Origin: a virus
Direction: 5' to 3' (one strand)
DNA length: 38,695 bases
Virus record (IMG/VR): IMGVR_UViG_3300046028_004853
Coordinates: 1 to 38,695 of that record
The translations under genes were made by a program, and so were the position numbers. This document shows, in pieces, positions 26,053 to 31,948 of the stretch (the first letter of the stretch is position 1; each line of letters starts with the position of its first letter). The notes below the pieces were generated by a model that searched no databases, had not been told where the DNA came from, and was given only the letters and a program-made list of their open reading frames with translations.

Positions 26053-26610
26053 TTAGAAGCTGTTTGCGTTGTGATGTTGGGTGGCTTTTTCGGCTGCAAG
26101 AAAAGCCTCGCGGGCCTTCATGGACTGCTGTTCGGCCTCTCGGGCGGCGGCTAACCGTTCGCCGCGCGCACCAGTGTCAGTCGCTGGCCCCGGCCCGACT
26201 TTCATATTCAGTTCGCTGGCCCTCTGTCGCAGGGCTTTCCATTCTTGCTCCAAACGCCGGACCTCAACGGCCTTTGGCGACGGTTCACGCCAGCCGCGCA
26301 AAGCATCAAGCATCGCCTCCCGGTCCCCGCCGTATTTCCGGCAAACGCCCTCAAGTTCGGGGAGGGTAGGAAACCACGCGGCGACGTTACCCGGTCTAGG
26401 TTCGTTCGCCAGTTCCATCACGGCAACTTGCGCTACGTCCAGCGGATGACGGCGAAGGCAATGGACGTAAGCGTCAAACCCGACCTCTGCCGCGTCCTCG
26501 CTGGATGCCCTCCGGGCCAAAGCCTGTTGCAGTTGTGAAACCATTAGTTCCGCTTCCTCATGGCTTGGCGGGACGGAGGCAAACTCAACCTTGCCAATCG
26601 CCAGCCGCAC
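26053..26610 (-). CDS. Hypothetical protein at the end of the replication block
   Basis: About 185 aa from a GTG at 26610, chosen because it overlaps the DUF1376 gene by only 26 bases. The same frame is open another 306 bases upstream, and an internal ATG (EAELMVSQLQ) is also possible. Central helices (VGFDAYVHCLRRHPLDVAQV, AAWFPTLPELEGVCRKYGGD) recall regions near replication-initiator partners in phages. The C-terminal third is a charged coiled coil (VRRLEQEWKALRQRASELNM and AREAEQQSMKAREAFLAAEK). A helicase-loader-like role is possible by position, not by motif. Confidence 0.6.
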   Translation of the reverse strand: MRLAIGKVEFASVPPSHEEAELMVSQLQQALARRASSEDAAEVGFDAYVHCLRRHPLDVAQVAVMELANEPRPGNVAAWFPTLPELEGVCRKYGGDREAMLDALRGWREPSPKAVEVRRLEQEWKALRQRASELNMKVGPGPATDTGARGERLAAAREAEQQSMKAREAFLAAEKATQHHNANSF

Positions 26611-27529
26611 ATTGTCCGTCGATTGCGCCAATACCCCAGCCGAAGTCGTCACCTGATACGGTGGCTTGCCTTCCGGGTATCTCCATTCCCGCTTCACGTT
26701 CACGCTTACGCCTAGCTGCGATGTCAGCGAATGACGTATCGCCTGATCGGTTTCCGCTGGCTTTCGGGTTCCCAGCCACACCCTCGCCTTCGCTTCCTCT
26801 TGGCTCGTCAGCCCAGCCACCCCGGTTGAGCCACGTTGCAGCGTGGGGGATATATCTCGCGACTGCCCACTCAGGCCAACGGCGTTGAGCATCGACTGCG
26901 GCGACAAGCGTTCCATGATCGGTTTCCTTCAGGGCTTTCAGGTATGCCGCATGGGCGGCTTTGCGGGATTTCTTGACTGGCCAGCGCGACCAAAACTCAG
27001 CGAACAAATCAGGCGGTCGCACAAGAGTTACGTTAGTAACTCTCTTACTATCTGGTTCTGATTCTGATTGGCTAGGTTTTGGCTGGCGTAACGTGTTGTT
27101 TTTGCGAGGAAGCCCTGCGATTTCGCGCTGATTATCCTGATATTTTCTCGATTCTTCGGTGAGATAATCTGCGCGAAAGTTCGAGATAATCCCGTTGGCG
27201 CACTGAATCTTCCCAGCCGCAAGAAGCTCTTTTCGGATGGCCGTCCACTTCCTGACGCTGCACCCAAGCTGGCCAGCGATGTAACGCGCGTCATCGGCAA
27301 GCCGTCCGTCGCGCATATAAATCAGGTCAAGAACGATGGCGTAAGCGCCCTTGGTTTCCAGACACAAGCCTATCGTCCCGTCGAGAAAATCGCGGGGGAA
27401 GCGTTTGTAATACGGGAGGCTCACGGCATCACCCGAGGGCTTGCACAAATGGTCTGGTGGCGGTATATCCGCATTGGTCAACGGCCCTCCTACGGCCTTG
27501 GCATGAGGGAGGCTTGACGCGATTTCCAC
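26585..27529 (-). CDS. DUF1376-type replication protein
   Basis: 314 aa if started at the GTG with a strong GGGAGGGAGG upstream; a GTG at 27424 would remove 35 unconserved residues and begin MSLPYYKRFPRDF. The DUF1376 (YdaU-like) domain is LPYYKRFPRDFLDGTIGLCL to about residue 120, including LADDARYIAGQLGCSVRKWT, a winged-helix pattern. A linker follows, then FAEFWSRWPVKKSRKAAHAA and ATWLNRGGWADEP, seen in many phage replication-initiator C-termini. It probably binds the phage origin and recruits host helicase. Clustering with a DnaA domain IV gene supports this. Confidence 0.78.
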   Translation of the reverse strand: MEIASSLPHAKAVGGPLTNADIPPPDHLCKPSGDAVSLPYYKRFPRDFLDGTIGLCLETKGAYAIVLDLIYMRDGRLADDARYIAGQLGCSVRKWTAIRKELLAAGKIQCANGIISNFRADYLTEESRKYQDNQREIAGLPRKNNTLRQPKPSQSESEPDSKRVTNVTLVRPPDLFAEFWSRWPVKKSRKAAHAAYLKALKETDHGTLVAAVDAQRRWPEWAVARYIPHAATWLNRGGWADEPRGSEGEGVAGNPKASGNRSGDTSFADIAARRKREREAGMEIPGRQATVSGDDFGWGIGAIDGQCAAGDWQG

Positions 27530-27549
27530 AAAGCGTCGCCTCCCTCCCT

Positions 27550-27578
27550 CTTATCAATGATTGCAGGGATGATTGCAA
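27550..27578 (-). promoter_or_regulatory. Possible leftward promoter and 9-bp direct repeats before the replication gene
   Basis: On the minus strand TTGCAA (27578-27573), 17 bases, GATAAG (27555-27550) stands just before the DUF1376 ribosome site. TGCAATCAT occurs twice in direct orientation, 12 bp apart (27577-27569 and 27565-27557), inside the promoter. The repeats could be regulator sites or short origin iterons. The boxes match only 4 of 6 each. Confidence 0.45.
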
Positions 27579-27638
27579 GGCGCTAAGGTCGCCCGTCGCC
27601 ATGCGGTCGTTTCCTCCCCTTGTCATGGTGGCTAGACT

Positions 27639-27674
27639 GGCCCGGCGCGTGAACATTCCGCGCCGGGCCTTTTT
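27639..27674 (+). terminator. Strong terminator hairpin pointing against the local genes
   Basis: GGCCCGGCGCG and CGCGCCGGGCC (perfect 11-bp stem, nine-base loop) are followed by TTTTT on the plus strand. The T-tract's last base is the first of the methyltransferase stop codon read on the minus strand. All surrounding genes are leftward, so as a rho-independent terminator it would stop antisense transcription. On the minus strand the hairpin lacks a T-tract. Confidence 0.75.
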
Positions 27675-28324
27675 CATATCAGAACATCTTGCACCGGCTT
27701 TTGAACCGGCTCGGCAAATAGGCGGGGCTGCTTGTAAGCCTCCTCGATGCGGCGACAGGCGATGTCGAAATACGAAGGCTCGCGCTCTATGCCGATGAAA
27801 GCACGGTCGGTCAGGGCGCAGGCAACGCCGGTCGTGCCGGAACCCATGAAGGGGTCGAGGATGGACTTGGCGTCGGGCAGGAATTTGAGGCACCACTCTA
27901 TTAAGGGGAGTGGTTTTTGGGTTGGGTGCCCAAACTCAACGCGACCGACAGGCAAAGAGCAGCGTTTTGATGGCCGATCTAGGTTTGTCTAAGCTGATTC
28001 AAAATCAGCCATTGTCGGAACCGCGTTTACCTTGTCCCAACTTAACCAGCAGCGAGACGGCGGAACCGCAAAATAGTTGCCGCCCCAGATGATAGTGGGG
28101 ACGGCCTTTGCAATCAGGATGGCGACCAAATCATGCGGTGCCTCAAGATCCCATTTTAGAAATCCAGAGTTATGGTCCTGTGCGCCCCATGTCCCGCCCT
28201 GCATTTTTTTGCCCAGACCATACGGCGGGTCCGTTAAGATTGCGTCGAAAGCATCAACGTGCCCTAGCGCATCCCGGCAATCGCCAAGTATCAGCCGACA
28301 GTCACCAATGATTTCCTCACGCAT
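27674..28324 (-). pseudogene. Amino-DNA methyltransferase interrupted by an in-frame TAG
   Basis: An N6/N4 DNA methyltransferase of the beta layout: ILTDPPYGLG (the DPPY catalytic motif) in the first half, then HPTQKPLPLIEWCLKFLPDA and ILDPFMGSGTTGVA (the SAM-binding motif) in the second half, ending in a short tail. The two halves are in one frame, separated only by a TAG at 27990-27988 after MADFESA; the frame continues TNLDRPSKRCSLPVGRVEFG. Relatives typically have W at this spot (pattern FE-A-W-T), so TGG to TAG is the simplest event. The start is the ATG eight bases inside the preceding gene. Unless suppressed or read through, it yields a ~111-aa fragment without the SAM motif. Confidence 0.85.
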
Positions 28325-28490
28325 CACCATTCTCCACAAACGGAAAGCCAATCACCTTAGCCCGGATGATTACGCTTTCCTCTAGCCGGTTAAGCGCCTT
28401 TGCCACGTCTGCGACAGGACGCTTGGCAAGCGAGCCTGATTTAAGAAGCCTATCCTCTTCAGGTGTCCATGCGCCTTTTGGTTTACGCAT
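28317..28490 (-). CDS. Small SANT/Myb-like (GcrA-like) DNA-binding protein
   Basis: 57 aa. The pattern WTPEEDRLLKSG, then VADVAKALNRLEESVIIRAKVIGF, is a SANT/Myb-type or GcrA-type helix-turn-helix, as used by small phage regulators in alphaproteobacteria. It starts with GAGG upstream, two bases after the previous gene, and overlaps the methyltransferase start by eight bases. GcrA works at methylated promoters in Caulobacter, so proximity to a methyltransferase gene is suggestive but not proof. Confidence 0.68.
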   Translation of the reverse strand: MRKPKGAWTPEEDRLLKSGSLAKRPVADVAKALNRLEESVIIRAKVIGFPFVENGDA

Positions 28491-28492
28491 CC

Positions 28493-28870
28493 TCAATCCT
28501 CCCAAATGCTAAACAGTGAGGGCCGCTTGGCAGGGACCGGCTTGGTTCTAACCGGCTTTGGCTTAGGCGCTGGCAAATGGTCGCCACGCTGAAACGCAAG
28601 GGCGAGGGCATAGACAAAACGTTCGTCAGCTGCCCGTTGCCGTGCCTCTGTCTCCCGGTCTTTGTTGAAGCCGTCCGGGTATCTGTTGGCCAGCTCCGAC
28701 CGGCCCAAGTCTTTCTGCCACGGGATGCCCATAGTCCGCGCTCGTTCCCGGACAGTGTATTCCGTTCGGCCCAGCTTCTCGCCAATCTCGGCGGGGCTAA
28801 AGCCTAGTCGCTTCATTTTGCGGAGCGTGTTATCTTGAACGGATGTAAACCAGTCACGCGGCTGACGCAT
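28493..28870 (-). CDS. HTH protein, SANT/GcrA-like
   Basis: 125 aa with GGAGG five bases before ATG. Residues 6-50 (WFTSVQDNTLRKMKRLGFSP then AEIGEKLGRTEYTVRERART) form a trihelical DNA-binding unit related in pattern to the following 57-aa protein. The C-terminal half is basic and proline-rich (APKPKPVRTKPVPAKRP) and probably disordered. Likely a regulator of phage or host genes. Target unknown. Confidence 0.68.
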   Translation of the reverse strand: MRQPRDWFTSVQDNTLRKMKRLGFSPAEIGEKLGRTEYTVRERARTMGIPWQKDLGRSELANRYPDGFNKDRETEARQRAADERFVYALALAFQRGDHLPAPKPKPVRTKPVPAKRPSLFSIWED

Positions 28871-29222
28871 ATTCGCCTCCCAATCTGGCGGTCACCATCG
28901 TCCGCTCGTAACCTTTGGCCAGCGCGTAGAAGGCAAAGTCCGGCCCGCCATACTTCCTAATCCGAACGGCGTGAGCGTATGTCTGCCCGTTCCGTTCGCA
29001 ATGAGCGCGGACCCCGTGCAGAATGGTCGTATGGTCACGGCCACCGATGCGCCGCGCAATCTCTGGATAAGAAAGGTGCGGGCACTCGGTGAAGGCCCTG
29101 TAATAAGCCTCCTGCCTTGGCCATGCGATATGACGCGAGCGACCCTGCCCGGTTAGCGCGGCGACGGTTAACCCGTATTCCTGAGCTACCTCCCGCAAGA
29201 TATTAGCGACTGTCTGTCTCAT
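28854..29222 (-). CDS. DnaA domain IV-like DNA-binding protein
   Basis: 122 aa. VAALTGQGRSRHIAWPRQEA and YPEIARRIGGRDHTTILHGV (GGRDHTTILHG at 60-70) are the DnaA-box-binding motif of bacterial DnaA domain IV; the ATPase domains are absent. The protein could recognise DnaA boxes at the phage origin, or compete with host DnaA. It overlaps the next gene by 17 bases and the HNH gene by 20. Free-standing DnaA C-terminal domains are known in alphaproteobacterial phages. Confidence 0.85.
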   Translation of the reverse strand: MRQTVANILREVAQEYGLTVAALTGQGRSRHIAWPRQEAYYRAFTECPHLSYPEIARRIGGRDHTTILHGVRAHCERNGQTYAHAVRIRKYGGPDFAFYALAKGYERTMVTARLGGEYASAA

Positions 29223-29592
29223 GCCTCTCTCTCCCCTTAAAAGGCCTCTTAGGCCATGTGGTTTTAGTCTTTGGGAACGGGCGGGATTGCATCGTGCTAG
29301 GCTTGCGGGTCAGCGGGTTTGATTTCCGCTCGATACGCTTGCACTTTGCGATAGCGCCCTTGTCCGTCCGGGTTTTCCCTTTGTGCGGCTCTTTGAGGGC
29401 CGGGTATAGGTTGTCGTCGTCGTTTGTCCCGCCTAGCGCAAGGGCTATTCGATGCTCAATCTCCCATGCCTCGCCAGCCTGAATCTTGCGCTTAGATATG
29501 CCGCAGATGCCCTCATGGAGGGCAAAGATGCGGGCGCGGTCTTTGGCGCTAAACGACTTGCGAGGATGGATGAAGACGGGTTCCCGGTTCAC
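29203..29592 (-). CDS. HNH endonuclease
   Basis: 129 aa from a GTG that overlaps the RusA stop. The HNH motif is WEIEHRIALALGG (H47), N61 in NDDDNLYP, and H70 in EPHKGKT, followed by a basic C-terminal tail rich in K, R and P. The first histidine cluster and N-H spacing fit a beta-beta-alpha-metal nuclease. It may act in packaging, recombination or as a free homing enzyme; context in the replication block favours a DNA-processing role. Confidence 0.8.
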   Translation of the reverse strand: MNREPVFIHPRKSFSAKDRARIFALHEGICGISKRKIQAGEAWEIEHRIALALGGTNDDDNLYPALKEPHKGKTRTDKGAIAKCKRIERKSNPLTRKPSTMQSRPFPKTKTTWPKRPFKGRERHETDSR

Positions 29593-29927
29593 GCAATCTC
29601 AATCCGCACAAGCCCGCCCTTGATCGGTTCGCCAAAGGTCAAAGAAGGCGCATTGAACTGACTGTCATTGACGCCAAACGCCAACGCCAAGCCGTCCTGA
29701 TAAGCCTTCAAGCTGGCCCTCGCGTTGTCGTCGTCTATCGCGTGAGCGGTCTTTGGGTGTATAGTGACGGACCAGTCAATGCGAGCATCAGCCGGGGCCA
29801 TTCGGTGTCCGACCATTCCGGCAACATAAGCCCATTCTTTGTGAGCCTTGAAAGCCTTAGCCTTAGCAGCCCAATGACCCCGACCGTTAGGCCAGAGGAT
29901 TTTAGCGGGCAAGGGAAGCTCGATCAC
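29589..29927 (-). CDS. RusA-type Holliday junction resolvase
   Basis: 112 aa from GTG (GTGA overlap). It starts IELPLPAKILWPNGRGHW, then the acidic core AIDDDNARASLKAYQDGLAL (D66-D68, D78) and GVNDSQ (D88), the arrangement of RusA active-site aspartates. RusA cuts four-way junctions symmetrically. Together with ERF, the SSB-like protein and NinB on the opposite arm it would complete a single-strand-annealing recombination pathway. The length is normal for the family. Confidence 0.88.
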   Translation of the reverse strand: MIELPLPAKILWPNGRGHWAAKAKAFKAHKEWAYVAGMVGHRMAPADARIDWSVTIHPKTAHAIDDDNARASLKAYQDGLALAFGVNDSQFNAPSLTFGEPIKGGLVRIEIA

Positions 29928-30187
29928 CGCCGCCCCTCGACCTTAAGTTCCTCTATCGAGAGAGCGCGAAGGGCCGCATAAATCGGAGCGCGGGCCTTTT
30001 TGGCTTTGATGACCTTCGCCAGTTCGTCTTTCAATGCGTTACGCTGGCGAGCAATCTCGGCAAGGCGTCGGGCTTTATCTCCCGCGCTTGTATAGAAGGG
30101 GTGAGCTTGCCAATCGTCCCGCTTTTGCGGTGCGGGCTGGCGGTGGAAGCCATAACGCTGGATGAGACGGCGAAGGAGAGCAATCAT
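29924..30187 (-). CDS. Small basic hypothetical protein
   Basis: 87 aa, ATGA-coupled to the repressor gene. Strongly basic and helical (MIALLRRLIQRYGFHRQPAP, DKARRLAEIARQRNALKDEL, KAKKARAPIYAALRAL). The charge suggests nucleic-acid binding. No family recognised. Its place between repressor and resolvase suggests early expression. Confidence 0.6.
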   Translation of the reverse strand: MIALLRRLIQRYGFHRQPAPQKRDDWQAHPFYTSAGDKARRLAEIARQRNALKDELAKVIKAKKARAPIYAALRALSIEELKVEGRR

Positions 30188-30405
30188 GGTTCGTTCCTCA
30201 AAGCTGCCCGCAGCAATGTAGCCGGAGACGTGTTATAAACAGAGGCCAAAGCGCCAAGCGTCGAAACGGTTGGATTGACCCGGTTTCCTTTTTCCATGTC
30301 GCACAGGTTGCCTTTGGCAAGCCCGGTCTGGCGGGAAACGTCGGATAGCGAGAGCTTTTCGCGCTTGCGAAGGCGTCGCAGTAGATCGGCAAATGTTTCT
30401 TCCAT
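30184..30405 (-). CDS. XRE-family repressor (switch regulator candidate)
   Basis: 73 aa from the ATG at 30405. The helix-turn-helix is LRRLRKREKLSLSDVSRQTG, then LAKGNLCDMEKGNRVNPTVS, the classical Cro/C1 (XRE) pattern. There is no C-terminal peptidase or large dimer domain, so it is Cro-sized. It is the first gene of the leftward block and lies opposite the rightward early operon. Its promoter's predicted start is at or next to the A of ATG, so the mRNA may be leaderless. An upstream in-frame start (MREPFRSVYGYG) would put the promoter inside the gene. Confidence 0.82.
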   Translation of the reverse strand: MEETFADLLRRLRKREKLSLSDVSRQTGLAKGNLCDMEKGNRVNPTVSTLGALASVYNTSPATLLRAALRNEP

Positions 30406-30411
30406 GCCGTA

Positions 30412-30441
30412 ACCATAGACCGAACGGAAAGGTTCTCGCAA
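30412..30441 (-). promoter_or_regulatory. Leftward repressor promoter, apparently leaderless
   Basis: Minus-strand TTGCGA (30441-30436), 18 bases, TATGGT (30417-30412). The expected start, 6-7 bases further, falls on or next to the ATG at 30405. The -10 sequence is the same as that of the accessory-block promoter at 25967-25972. The spacer is filled by the GAAC..GTTC dyad. Confidence 0.6.
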
Positions 30442-30699: not shown

Positions 30700-31046
30700 T
30701 GAAGCCTTCAAAAGAACTCTGCAAACTGGACGACGATATGTGGGAGGCGCATCGCGACTACGCCCGCGAGAACGACAGAGATTGGGCCAACGCTGACGAA
30801 CTCCGCGAAGAGGGCCTCGCAATCGGTGAGGAAGCCTACAAGCTCAACCCCGAAAACGATTACGAACACGACGTAGGCGATTGGGAAACTTACATCGAAG
30901 GCGAACTGGACAGGTATGACGAGCATCAGCAATCCGTCGTCGCCCGCGCCGCCTATTACCGCGTCAAAGAATGCGCTGAGGAAGCCGCCGATAAGGCCGC
31001 GAAGGCTCTGGCGATGGCCGCTGACATTACGGGAGCCGCGAAATGA
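30699..31046 (+). CDS. Acidic helical early protein
   Basis: 115 aa from the ATG in the TGATG junction. Very acidic N-terminal two thirds (ENDRDWANADELREEGLAIG and NDYEHDVGDWETYIEGELDR), then an alanine-rich helix (CAEEAADKAAKALAMAADIT). No recognised family. The highly negative surface would be compatible with DNA mimicry or binding a basic partner, but this is speculation from composition. Confidence 0.65.
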   Translation: MKPSKELCKLDDDMWEAHRDYARENDRDWANADELREEGLAIGEEAYKLNPENDYEHDVGDWETYIEGELDRYDEHQQSVVARAAYYRVKECAEEAADKAAKALAMAADITGAAK

Positions 31047-31948
31047 GCGCGAGAAAAGCTAAAACCGAAACGACCGTTGTTGCCTACAAGGGCACGGACA
31101 AGGACATGGCTTGCCGGGGCTTTGCATTTGAGCTTGGCAAGACCTACGAGCATGACGGCAAGGTAGTCGCCTGCCGAAGCGGTTTCCATGCGTGTGAAAA
31201 CCCGTTTGATGTGTGGTCCTATTATGGACCGGAGGACGGTAACCGTTTTTTCCGCGTCACTCTCGGCGGTGAACTGTCGAGGCATGGCGATGACAGCAAG
31301 ATAGCAGCGGGCCGCATTACGCTCGATGCGGAACTGCGTCTGCCAGACCTTGTGAACGACGCGGTAAAATGGGTGATCGCTGCAACGAAAGGCAATAAAG
31401 ACAACGGTAAGGGCTCCGCCAAGATCGGTTCCAGCGGCTACTACGCCAAGATTGGTTCCAGCGGCTACTCCGCCCAGATCGGTTCCAGCGGCAGCTCCGC
31501 CCAGATTGGTTCCAGCGGCGACTACGCCAAGATTGGTTCCAGCGGCGACTACGCCAAGATTGGTTCCAGCGGCAGCTCCGCCAAGATTGGTTCCAGCGGC
31601 GACTACGCCCAGATTGGTTCCAGCGGCGACTACGCCAAGATTGGTTCCAGCGGCTACTACGCCAAGATTGGTTCCAGCGGCTACTCCGCCCAGATTGGTT
31701 CCAGCGGCGACTACGCCAAGATTGGTTCCAGCGGCGACTACGCCAAGATCGACGCAACCGGAAAAGCCGCGACCATCGCTTGTGCCGGTCAAGGTTCGGT
31801 GGCCCGCGCGGATGAAGACGGCGCTATCTGTCTCGCATGGAACGACGGAAAGCGGACCCGGTTTGCGGTTGGTTATGTCGGAGAAAACGGCATTGAGGCG
31901 GGCGTGTGGTATCGCGCTGAGGCCGGAAAGCTGGTGAGGGCAGAATGA
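31043..31948 (+). CDS. DUF7666-like protein with 12 nonapeptide repeats
   Basis: 301 aa. The N-terminal ~120 residues (VVAYKGTDKDMACRGFAFEL, CRSGFHACENPFDVWSYYGP, FFRVTLGGELSRHGDDSKIA) match the pattern of DUF7666 phage proteins. Residues 126-233 are 12 exact-length repeats of nine residues, consensus A(K/Q)IGSSG(D/Y/S)(Y/S). They would fold as a regular solenoid of stacked beta turns with G and S at the corners. A C-terminal cap follows (AGQGSVARADEDGAICLAWN). The function is unknown. The near-identical DNA repeats make the copy number prone to change. Confidence 0.78.
   Translation: MSARKAKTETTVVAYKGTDKDMACRGFAFELGKTYEHDGKVVACRSGFHACENPFDVWSYYGPEDGNRFFRVTLGGELSRHGDDSKIAAGRITLDAELRLPDLVNDAVKWVIAATKGNKDNGKGSAKIGSSGYYAKIGSSGYSAQIGSSGSSAQIGSSGDYAKIGSSGDYAKIGSSGSSAKIGSSGDYAQIGSSGDYAKIGSSGYYAKIGSSGYSAQIGSSGDYAKIGSSGDYAKIDATGKAATIACAGQGSVARADEDGAICLAWNDGKRTRFAVGYVGENGIEAGVWYRAEAGKLVRAE
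31418..31741 (+). repeat. Tandem 27-bp coding repeat, 12 units
   Basis: Twelve head-to-tail 27-bp units, core GGTTCCAGCGGC, code for the nonapeptide solenoid. Variation is limited to the first base of codon 2 (K or Q) and to codons 8-9 (DY, YY, YS or SS). The pair YY-YS occurs as units 1-2 and again 9-10, pointing to block duplication. Confidence 0.95.

Follow-up and report, generated by a model that had tools for sequence, protein, structure and literature searches.

A free DNA-binding domain of the bacterial initiator DnaA sits, together with a row of small helix-turn-helix (HTH) genes, in the middle of a phage early replication operon with exchangeable parts. Across phages this stand-alone domain, here called DnaA-C, is a partner of the neighbourhood of a DUF1376-type replication initiator, of which GcrA is another frequent occupant; in their occurrence DnaA-C and GcrA resemble alternatives rather than members of one set. 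The window, by which we mean the whole stretch of DNA analysed, is an entire virus record of 38,695 bases, and because an exact 126-base copy of its start recurs inside its last 2 kb it is probably a complete genome. Its portal has its best match in a Bradyrhizobium phage (45%), its phosphoesterase matches a Caulobacter phage (60% over 69%) and its terminase a Rhodoferax phage (49%).

The operon lies on the minus strand and runs in the order of the first nine rows of Table 1, with an ERF recombinase encoded on the opposite strand. A preliminary description had placed four adjacent genes within 28317-29222; the genes of the row do overlap or almost abut, as in an operon, but the methyltransferase falls mostly outside that interval. 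A promoter scan across 26-31 kb found none. The conserved intergenic element downstream of the methyltransferase contains a GC hairpin of 11 bp with T5 after it (z -4.2), in terminator orientation for plus-strand transcripts, while the local genes are on the minus strand. It recurs in nine relatives (L012, L014, L017-L020, L026, L028 and L033) and is possibly a small or antisense RNA; an Rfam search of the element gave no match, and a conserved RNA fold past the terminator found no support in 27530-27690. At 31043-31948 there is a 301-aa protein with many tandem IGSSG-type repeat units; the other strand there has long open frames. Genes of the operon swap their middles or halves, and their ends, each overlapping or abutting the next start, remain near-identical (A3; L017, L018, L022, L023, L028).

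Table 1. Features of the replication operon and its surroundings in the window.
Feature	Coordinates	Strand	Match
Cro/C1-type repressor, head of operon	30184..30441	-	Pfam HTH_31 7.1e-11
87-aa protein, kept in operon of relatives, no assigned function	29924..30187	-	
RusA-like resolvase	29589..29927	-	phrog_34 1.1e-12
HNH endonuclease, overlapping DnaA-C start	29203..29592	-	phrog_333 1.9e-10
DnaA-C, stand-alone DnaA domain IV, 122 aa	28854..29222	-	Pfam PF08299 (Bac_DnaA_C) 1.8e-18; E. coli 1j1v 2.1e-13
SANT125, HTH protein, 125 aa	28493..28870	-	phrog_323 2.9e-6
Myb62, single small HTH protein, 57 aa from ATG (28320-28490), 62 aa from TTG	28317..28490	-	phrog_323 9.1e-6
N6/N4 DNA methyltransferase with in-frame TAG at 27989-27991	27674..28333	-	Pfam N6_N4_Mtase on both halves
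DUF1376/DnaD-type replication initiator	26585..27529	-	Pfam DUF1376 1.5e-12; phrog_9327 primosomal 5.5e-26; phrog_270 replication initiation 4e-18
287-aa protein overlapping initiator	26053..26916	-	without Pfam or PHROG match
Conserved intergenic element with terminator hairpin	27530..27674	+	

The free DnaA DNA-binding domain reported earlier is borne out. Domain IV occupies residues 6-72 of DnaA-C and is followed by a C-terminal extension of 45-50 aa, and the score exceeds the Pfam Bac_DnaA_C cut-off (66.7 bits versus 31.5). The residues that contact the DnaA box are all present, namely R399, R407, P423, D433, H434, T435 and T436 (R28, R36, P53, D63, H64, T65 and T66 in the window), where for contacts other than those in the paper cited below the numbering is one that we presume. 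These positions are invariant or nearly so across 20 copies of the close group. Among 86 distant stand-alone copies, a count that excludes the six full-length DnaA of the 71 loci L084-L154, R407 and H434 are kept in 86, D433 in 83, T435 in 82 (Ser in four), T436 in 81 and R399 in 75. Arg399 reads the TTA part of the DnaA box and the helix from 434 the remainder, and the substitutions T435M and R399A abolish box binding, as stated in the part of PMC5742627 used here. The full-length DnaA model TIGR00362 reaches 57.9 bits of the 343.9 needed, with a match confined to positions 346-415, and a test of the 122-aa frame for full-length DnaA found neither an AAA+ domain nor domain I. DnaA-C is the DNA-binding domain of DnaA without AAA+ motor or helicase-binding domain. 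Among further candidate stand-alone copies, H12 (Acinetobacter) proved to be a full-length dnaA gene, and H5 and H6 are annotated as dnaA; all three were left uncounted. The Rhizobium phage RHph_N28_2 and similar phages carry annotated stand-alone DnaA-like proteins with the same domain and contact residues as DnaA-C and E. coli 1j1v, and RHph_N28_2 shares with the window row DUF1376, HNH and methyltransferase neighbours. In the window's group the domain is N-terminal and bears the extension, whereas in most aligned isolates it lies at the C-terminus.

In close relatives, counted over 24 contigs from two scans, the surroundings of DnaA-C are largely kept. The HNH gene is directly upstream in 21 of 21 (one of the 24 contigs starts inside DnaA-C and two have no DnaA-C), and a full SANT125 follows directly in 16 of 20, the remainder having an inserted gene (two) or only the C-terminal half (two), with two further contigs ending there. 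Myb62 comes after a full SANT125 in 16/20, and the 87-aa protein is conserved in the operon. The order of DnaA-C and the 125-aa gene is beyond chance, but it is counted among close relatives. The four-gene order, proposed earlier as something to look for in other phages, holds in 8 of 20 relatives, three of them with a methyltransferase cut by the end of the locus, but that gene is optional. While DnaA-C persists, the initiator varies in type (DUF1376 or HTH_36), its N-terminus being replaced by an unrelated one.

A diverse DnaA-C profile scan gave at least 364 loci. The family search covered 50 distant records (L089-L138) out of the 71 loci L084-L154, with the full-length DnaA of L092, L122 and L126 still among them; it found GcrA in nine (four over the cut-off), DUF1376 in 11 and an N6/N4 methyltransferase in 12. 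Coordinates compared by hand put all nine GcrA matches at most about 2.6 kb from DnaA-C. In L089 a full GcrA (2.4e-17), a 430-aa methyltransferase (4.8e-35), DnaA-C and DUF1376 stand in a row of about 3.6 kb. Elsewhere the DnaA-C gene overlaps a fragment of GcrA: in L098 (3635-4473) and L100 a 76-aa protein that is the GcrA DNA-binding domain only (4.2e-10), and in L114 (3755-4529) a 77-aa protein that is the C-terminal domain only (6.7e-7, positions 99-147). L102 has a methyltransferase, a small HTH protein, HNH, a 131-aa protein, DnaA-C, DUF1376 and a double GcrA-type DNA-binding protein. Some phages assigned to cyanobacteria have DnaA-C as well; GcrA is not known to us from cyanobacteria. 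Synechococcus phage Ssp-JY42 (L066/L067/L074) has a full GcrA (1.6e-35) with DnaA-C about 4 kb away, and its host record may merit checking.

To avoid selecting on DnaA-C, 50 contigs were picked from 80 loci by DUF1376 alone. The set leaves out the L102 group, short contigs, the window's own group (L173, L176-L178, L203), L219, which is the same record as L089, and L179, presumed to be a near-copy of L180. Stand-alone DnaA-C is present in 22/50, and in every case it shares the strand of DUF1376 and lies no more than 2186 bases from it (22 of 22; about 5e-21 under random placement). GcrA occurs in 20 of the 50 (15 over the cut-off), and 15 of these 20 lie within 4190 bases of DUF1376, against 4.2 expected by random placement. 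The two are found together in six contigs, where 8.8 would be expected (n=50; odds ratio 0.38, p 0.15), and for GcrA over the cut-off in three versus 6.6 (p 0.03; 0.05 without near-copies). DnaA-C is present in several of the left-out loci, in L219 together with GcrA, so that the 22/50 and the weak negative association hold for this subset only. We found no description in the open-access literature of the neighbourhood of DnaA domain IV and DUF1376 (22/22) or of free GcrA domains beside DnaA-C.

What DNA would such a domain bind? The window holds no DnaA box of the form TTWTNCACA, against 1.9 expected, and five one-mismatch boxes against 4.6. Ten relatives have six boxes in all, so that the 11 genomes together (412 kb, with one genome truncated at 40 kb) hold six, where the expectation is 17.5 or 10.7 according to the model used. 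In 22 DnaA-C phages there are 18 boxes in 850 kb, 11 records having none; per Mb, DnaA-C phages have 21 boxes and others 12 (p 0.11). No pair within 100 bp occurs among the listed sites of the window, the ten relatives or the 22 DnaA-C phages, and 25.9-31.0 kb contains no iteron array. A TTATCCAGA site inside dnaA-C was not counted as a box, as it tracks a coded protein motif in most relatives, and the few, unclustered boxes of the phages found no support as the target of DnaA-C. Because the box contacts are kept while the phages hold few boxes and no cluster, host DnaA boxes are the favoured target, and DnaA-C most likely acts there.

From this we tentatively prefer, as a reading that is possible and falls somewhat short of probable, that free DnaA-C competes for host boxes from within the phage replication operon. 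It would occupy its predicted host targets, TTATCCACA-type boxes at oriC and at DnaA-controlled promoters, at the time when phage replication is being started by the DUF1376 initiator encoded nearby; host initiation would be held back and replication proteins freed for the phage. The slightly higher box density of DnaA-C phages, the presence of DnaA-C in phages assigned to cyanobacteria and the lower scores of the separate HTH profiles (given below) weigh against this reading. YfdR of an E. coli cryptic prophage is likewise a prophage protein tied to host initiation control, with the difference that YfdR binds the DnaA protein and DnaA-C would instead compete for DnaA's DNA sites (for YfdR, PMC4776307 in part). 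In the portion of PMC9437464 consulted, the sites of DnaA, GcrA and SciP are reported not to be unevenly distributed in alphaproteobacterial phages.

The linkage to DUF1376 within 2.2 kb fits equally well a role at the phage origin, in which DnaA-C would supply the DNA-binding function of a phage initiator split in two, marking the origin while the DUF1376/DnaD protein loads the helicase, much as lambda O and P do. That DnaA-C has no AAA+ domain of its own is in keeping with such a division, as is the identity of its neighbour, which in ctOK67 is annotated as a replisome organizer and in RHph_N28_2 is DUF1376. We nevertheless consider this reading somewhat unlikely: no box cluster was found in the window, the ten relatives or the 22 DnaA-C phages and no iteron array in 25.9-31.0 kb, the N-terminus of the initiator is swapped while DnaA-C stays, and 28 of the 50 DUF1376 phages manage without DnaA-C.

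The two small HTH proteins had been likened to GcrA. SANT125 consists of an HTH (7-47), a separate helix (67-95) and a Pro-rich tail, and it is a paralogue of Myb62 (hhalign 82%, 28% identity over 53 residues from residue 1). A third paralogue, 31% identical to SANT125, stands where DnaA-C would be expected in L029 and L032 and scores 14.6-19.1 bits against Pfam GcrA (cut-off 26.9). Their HTH is plausibly a GcrA-like DNA-binding domain, to judge from profile comparison: the pooled HTH profile matches eight GcrA DNA-binding domains at 96% over 47 columns, versus 0.9% and 0.1% for the two control profiles used, DnaA-C and the repressor. Separately, SANT125 reaches 80% and Myb62 46%, and against full GcrA 5.5% and 15%. 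The likeness ends there. The Cys-rich C-terminal domain of GcrA is its sigma-interacting part, and its signature, C.WP.GD..C-G..YC..H, is kept in six of six aligned phage GcrA; it was sought in SANT125 and Myb62 and is absent from both, each of which has a Cys count of zero. Pfam GcrA matches neither protein, nor anything else in the record, and the best Pfam match of Myb62 is a Myb domain below threshold. Because the C-terminal domain is missing and the Pfam cut-off is failed, the two proteins are not GcrA. The structural match to GcrA that had been suggested was obtained in part: in a fold search with the SANT125 AlphaFold model (pLDDT about 84 in the HTH) the GcrA DNA-binding domain 5yiv ranked fifth (Z 6.5, 28% identity), but tied with Fis, NtrC, LuxR-type and other folds, and the Myb62 model was too poor, its structure search giving no match. 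A sequence search of solved structures returned no GcrA for either protein. No 125-aa protein was found in isolate phages, and a genome search with the SANT125 profile gave one Streptomyces stretch (45% over 51 residues).

According to the part of PMC3556154 used here, the GcrA homologue of phiCbK-type phages is thought to change the host replicative state. The phiCbK protein, gp222, is like SANT125 and Myb62 a small phage HTH regulator, and their pooled profile resembles GcrA DNA-binding domains; gp222 differs in possessing the C-terminal domain and in being a described Pfam member, whereas they have the HTH only and no Cys motif (PMC3556154, in part). Under competition for host boxes, SANT125 and Myb62, which would be DNA-binding only, may bind and block or mark promoters, and because the sigma-binding domain is missing they would not activate as GcrA does. 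It is distinctly unlikely, in our estimation, that DnaA-C and the small HTH proteins are instead ordinary regulators of phage promoters that leave host cell-cycle control alone. The two or three tandem paralogues per operon, the matches to the phrog_323 transcriptional regulators and the sharing of the HTH fold by many families would suit such regulators; the box contacts are strongly kept though the phages hold few boxes, and free GcrA domains occur in other phages, both of which argue against them.

The methyltransferase (METHYLTRANSFERASE) is broken, as first described, by a single in-frame TAG, and reading through this codon joins both halves. In seven aligned relatives the frame is complete, with Trp at the TAG position. 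Since five of the 34 genes selected from this phage end in TAG, it is a normal stop here. The motifs run DPPY then DPF.GSG, an order that we take to be that of the beta-type N6/N4 class; the first half by itself is below the Pfam cut-off. The seven full enzymes have almost identical ends and very different middles, a pattern indicative of exchanged specificity. Four intact relatives score 55-63 bits on the NCBIfam CcrM model, far under its equivalog cut-off of 830, and CcrM was rejected as an identity. PhiLM21 likewise carries a phage DNA methyltransferase, a CcrM-like one (cited in PMC12429752, used in part), with which the relatives' enzymes contrast in this low score and in their exchanged middles. 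In 10 of 22 relatives the HTH genes are followed by a homologue, and in the other 12 none lies beside the row; of 24 loci, six have a C5 methyltransferase and four a PAPS-reductase-like gene. The gene looks like optional, exchangeable anti-restriction cargo, dead in this genome, and in the proposed scheme it would be an exchangeable protection gene.

Palindromic hexamers are avoided in the 11 group genomes (median observed/expected 0.18, other hexamers 0.96; 24 of the 64 lie below 0.1), which would fit strong restriction pressure and a protective role of the methyltransferase. In the 412 kb of the window and its ten relatives, CCGCGG, GCATGC, GAGCTC and GGGCCC are near 1% of expected. Avoidance that is relaxed in single genomes, which might have pointed to methyltransferase specificity, was seen in few cases, none tied to any methyltransferase. 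GANTC is the most avoided of the 16 five-base palindromes in the group, and was rejected as proof of a CcrM host, since palindromic hexamers are avoided in general and many far more strongly than GANTC.

That the phage carries substitutes for the whole DnaA-GcrA-CcrM circuit is highly improbable, for although the L089 row and the avoidance of GANTC speak for it, neither GcrA nor CcrM is present here, the methyltransferase is optional and broken, DnaA-C is replaced in L029 and L032, DnaA-C and GcrA have no positive association, and many hexamers are avoided far more than GANTC. The methyltransferase and GcrA occur independently of the row; the small HTH proteins, in close relatives, do not. Of the decoys or substitutes first imagined, what stands is that other phages set DnaA-C beside real GcrA parts (L089, L098, L100, L114): a fixed four-gene cell-cycle kit is without support, and the wider idea of free regulator domains beside an initiator is supported.

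GcrA and CcrM-like enzymes of phages have been published before, and phage records already annotate DnaA-like domains; in the part of PMC12429752 used here, a prophage gene table counts GcrA five times and DnaA once. More speculative, and in our judgement unlikely as a whole, is that many phages keep a slot by a DUF1376-like initiator for free cell-cycle regulator domains, be it the DNA-binding domain of DnaA or that of GcrA or the GcrA sigma-binding domain, serving as dominant blockers or split regulators. Given the overlap of the DnaA-C and GcrA sigma-binding genes in L114, that pair could, at the onset of phage replication, recruit sigma-70 to DnaA boxes and so rewire host transcription. 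The free-domain idea is worth testing, chiefly on account of L098, L100 and L114. If the free domains compete, they would serve as small inhibitors, ready for use, of what DnaA and GcrA do, and competition would explain how these phages halt host replication in favour of their own.
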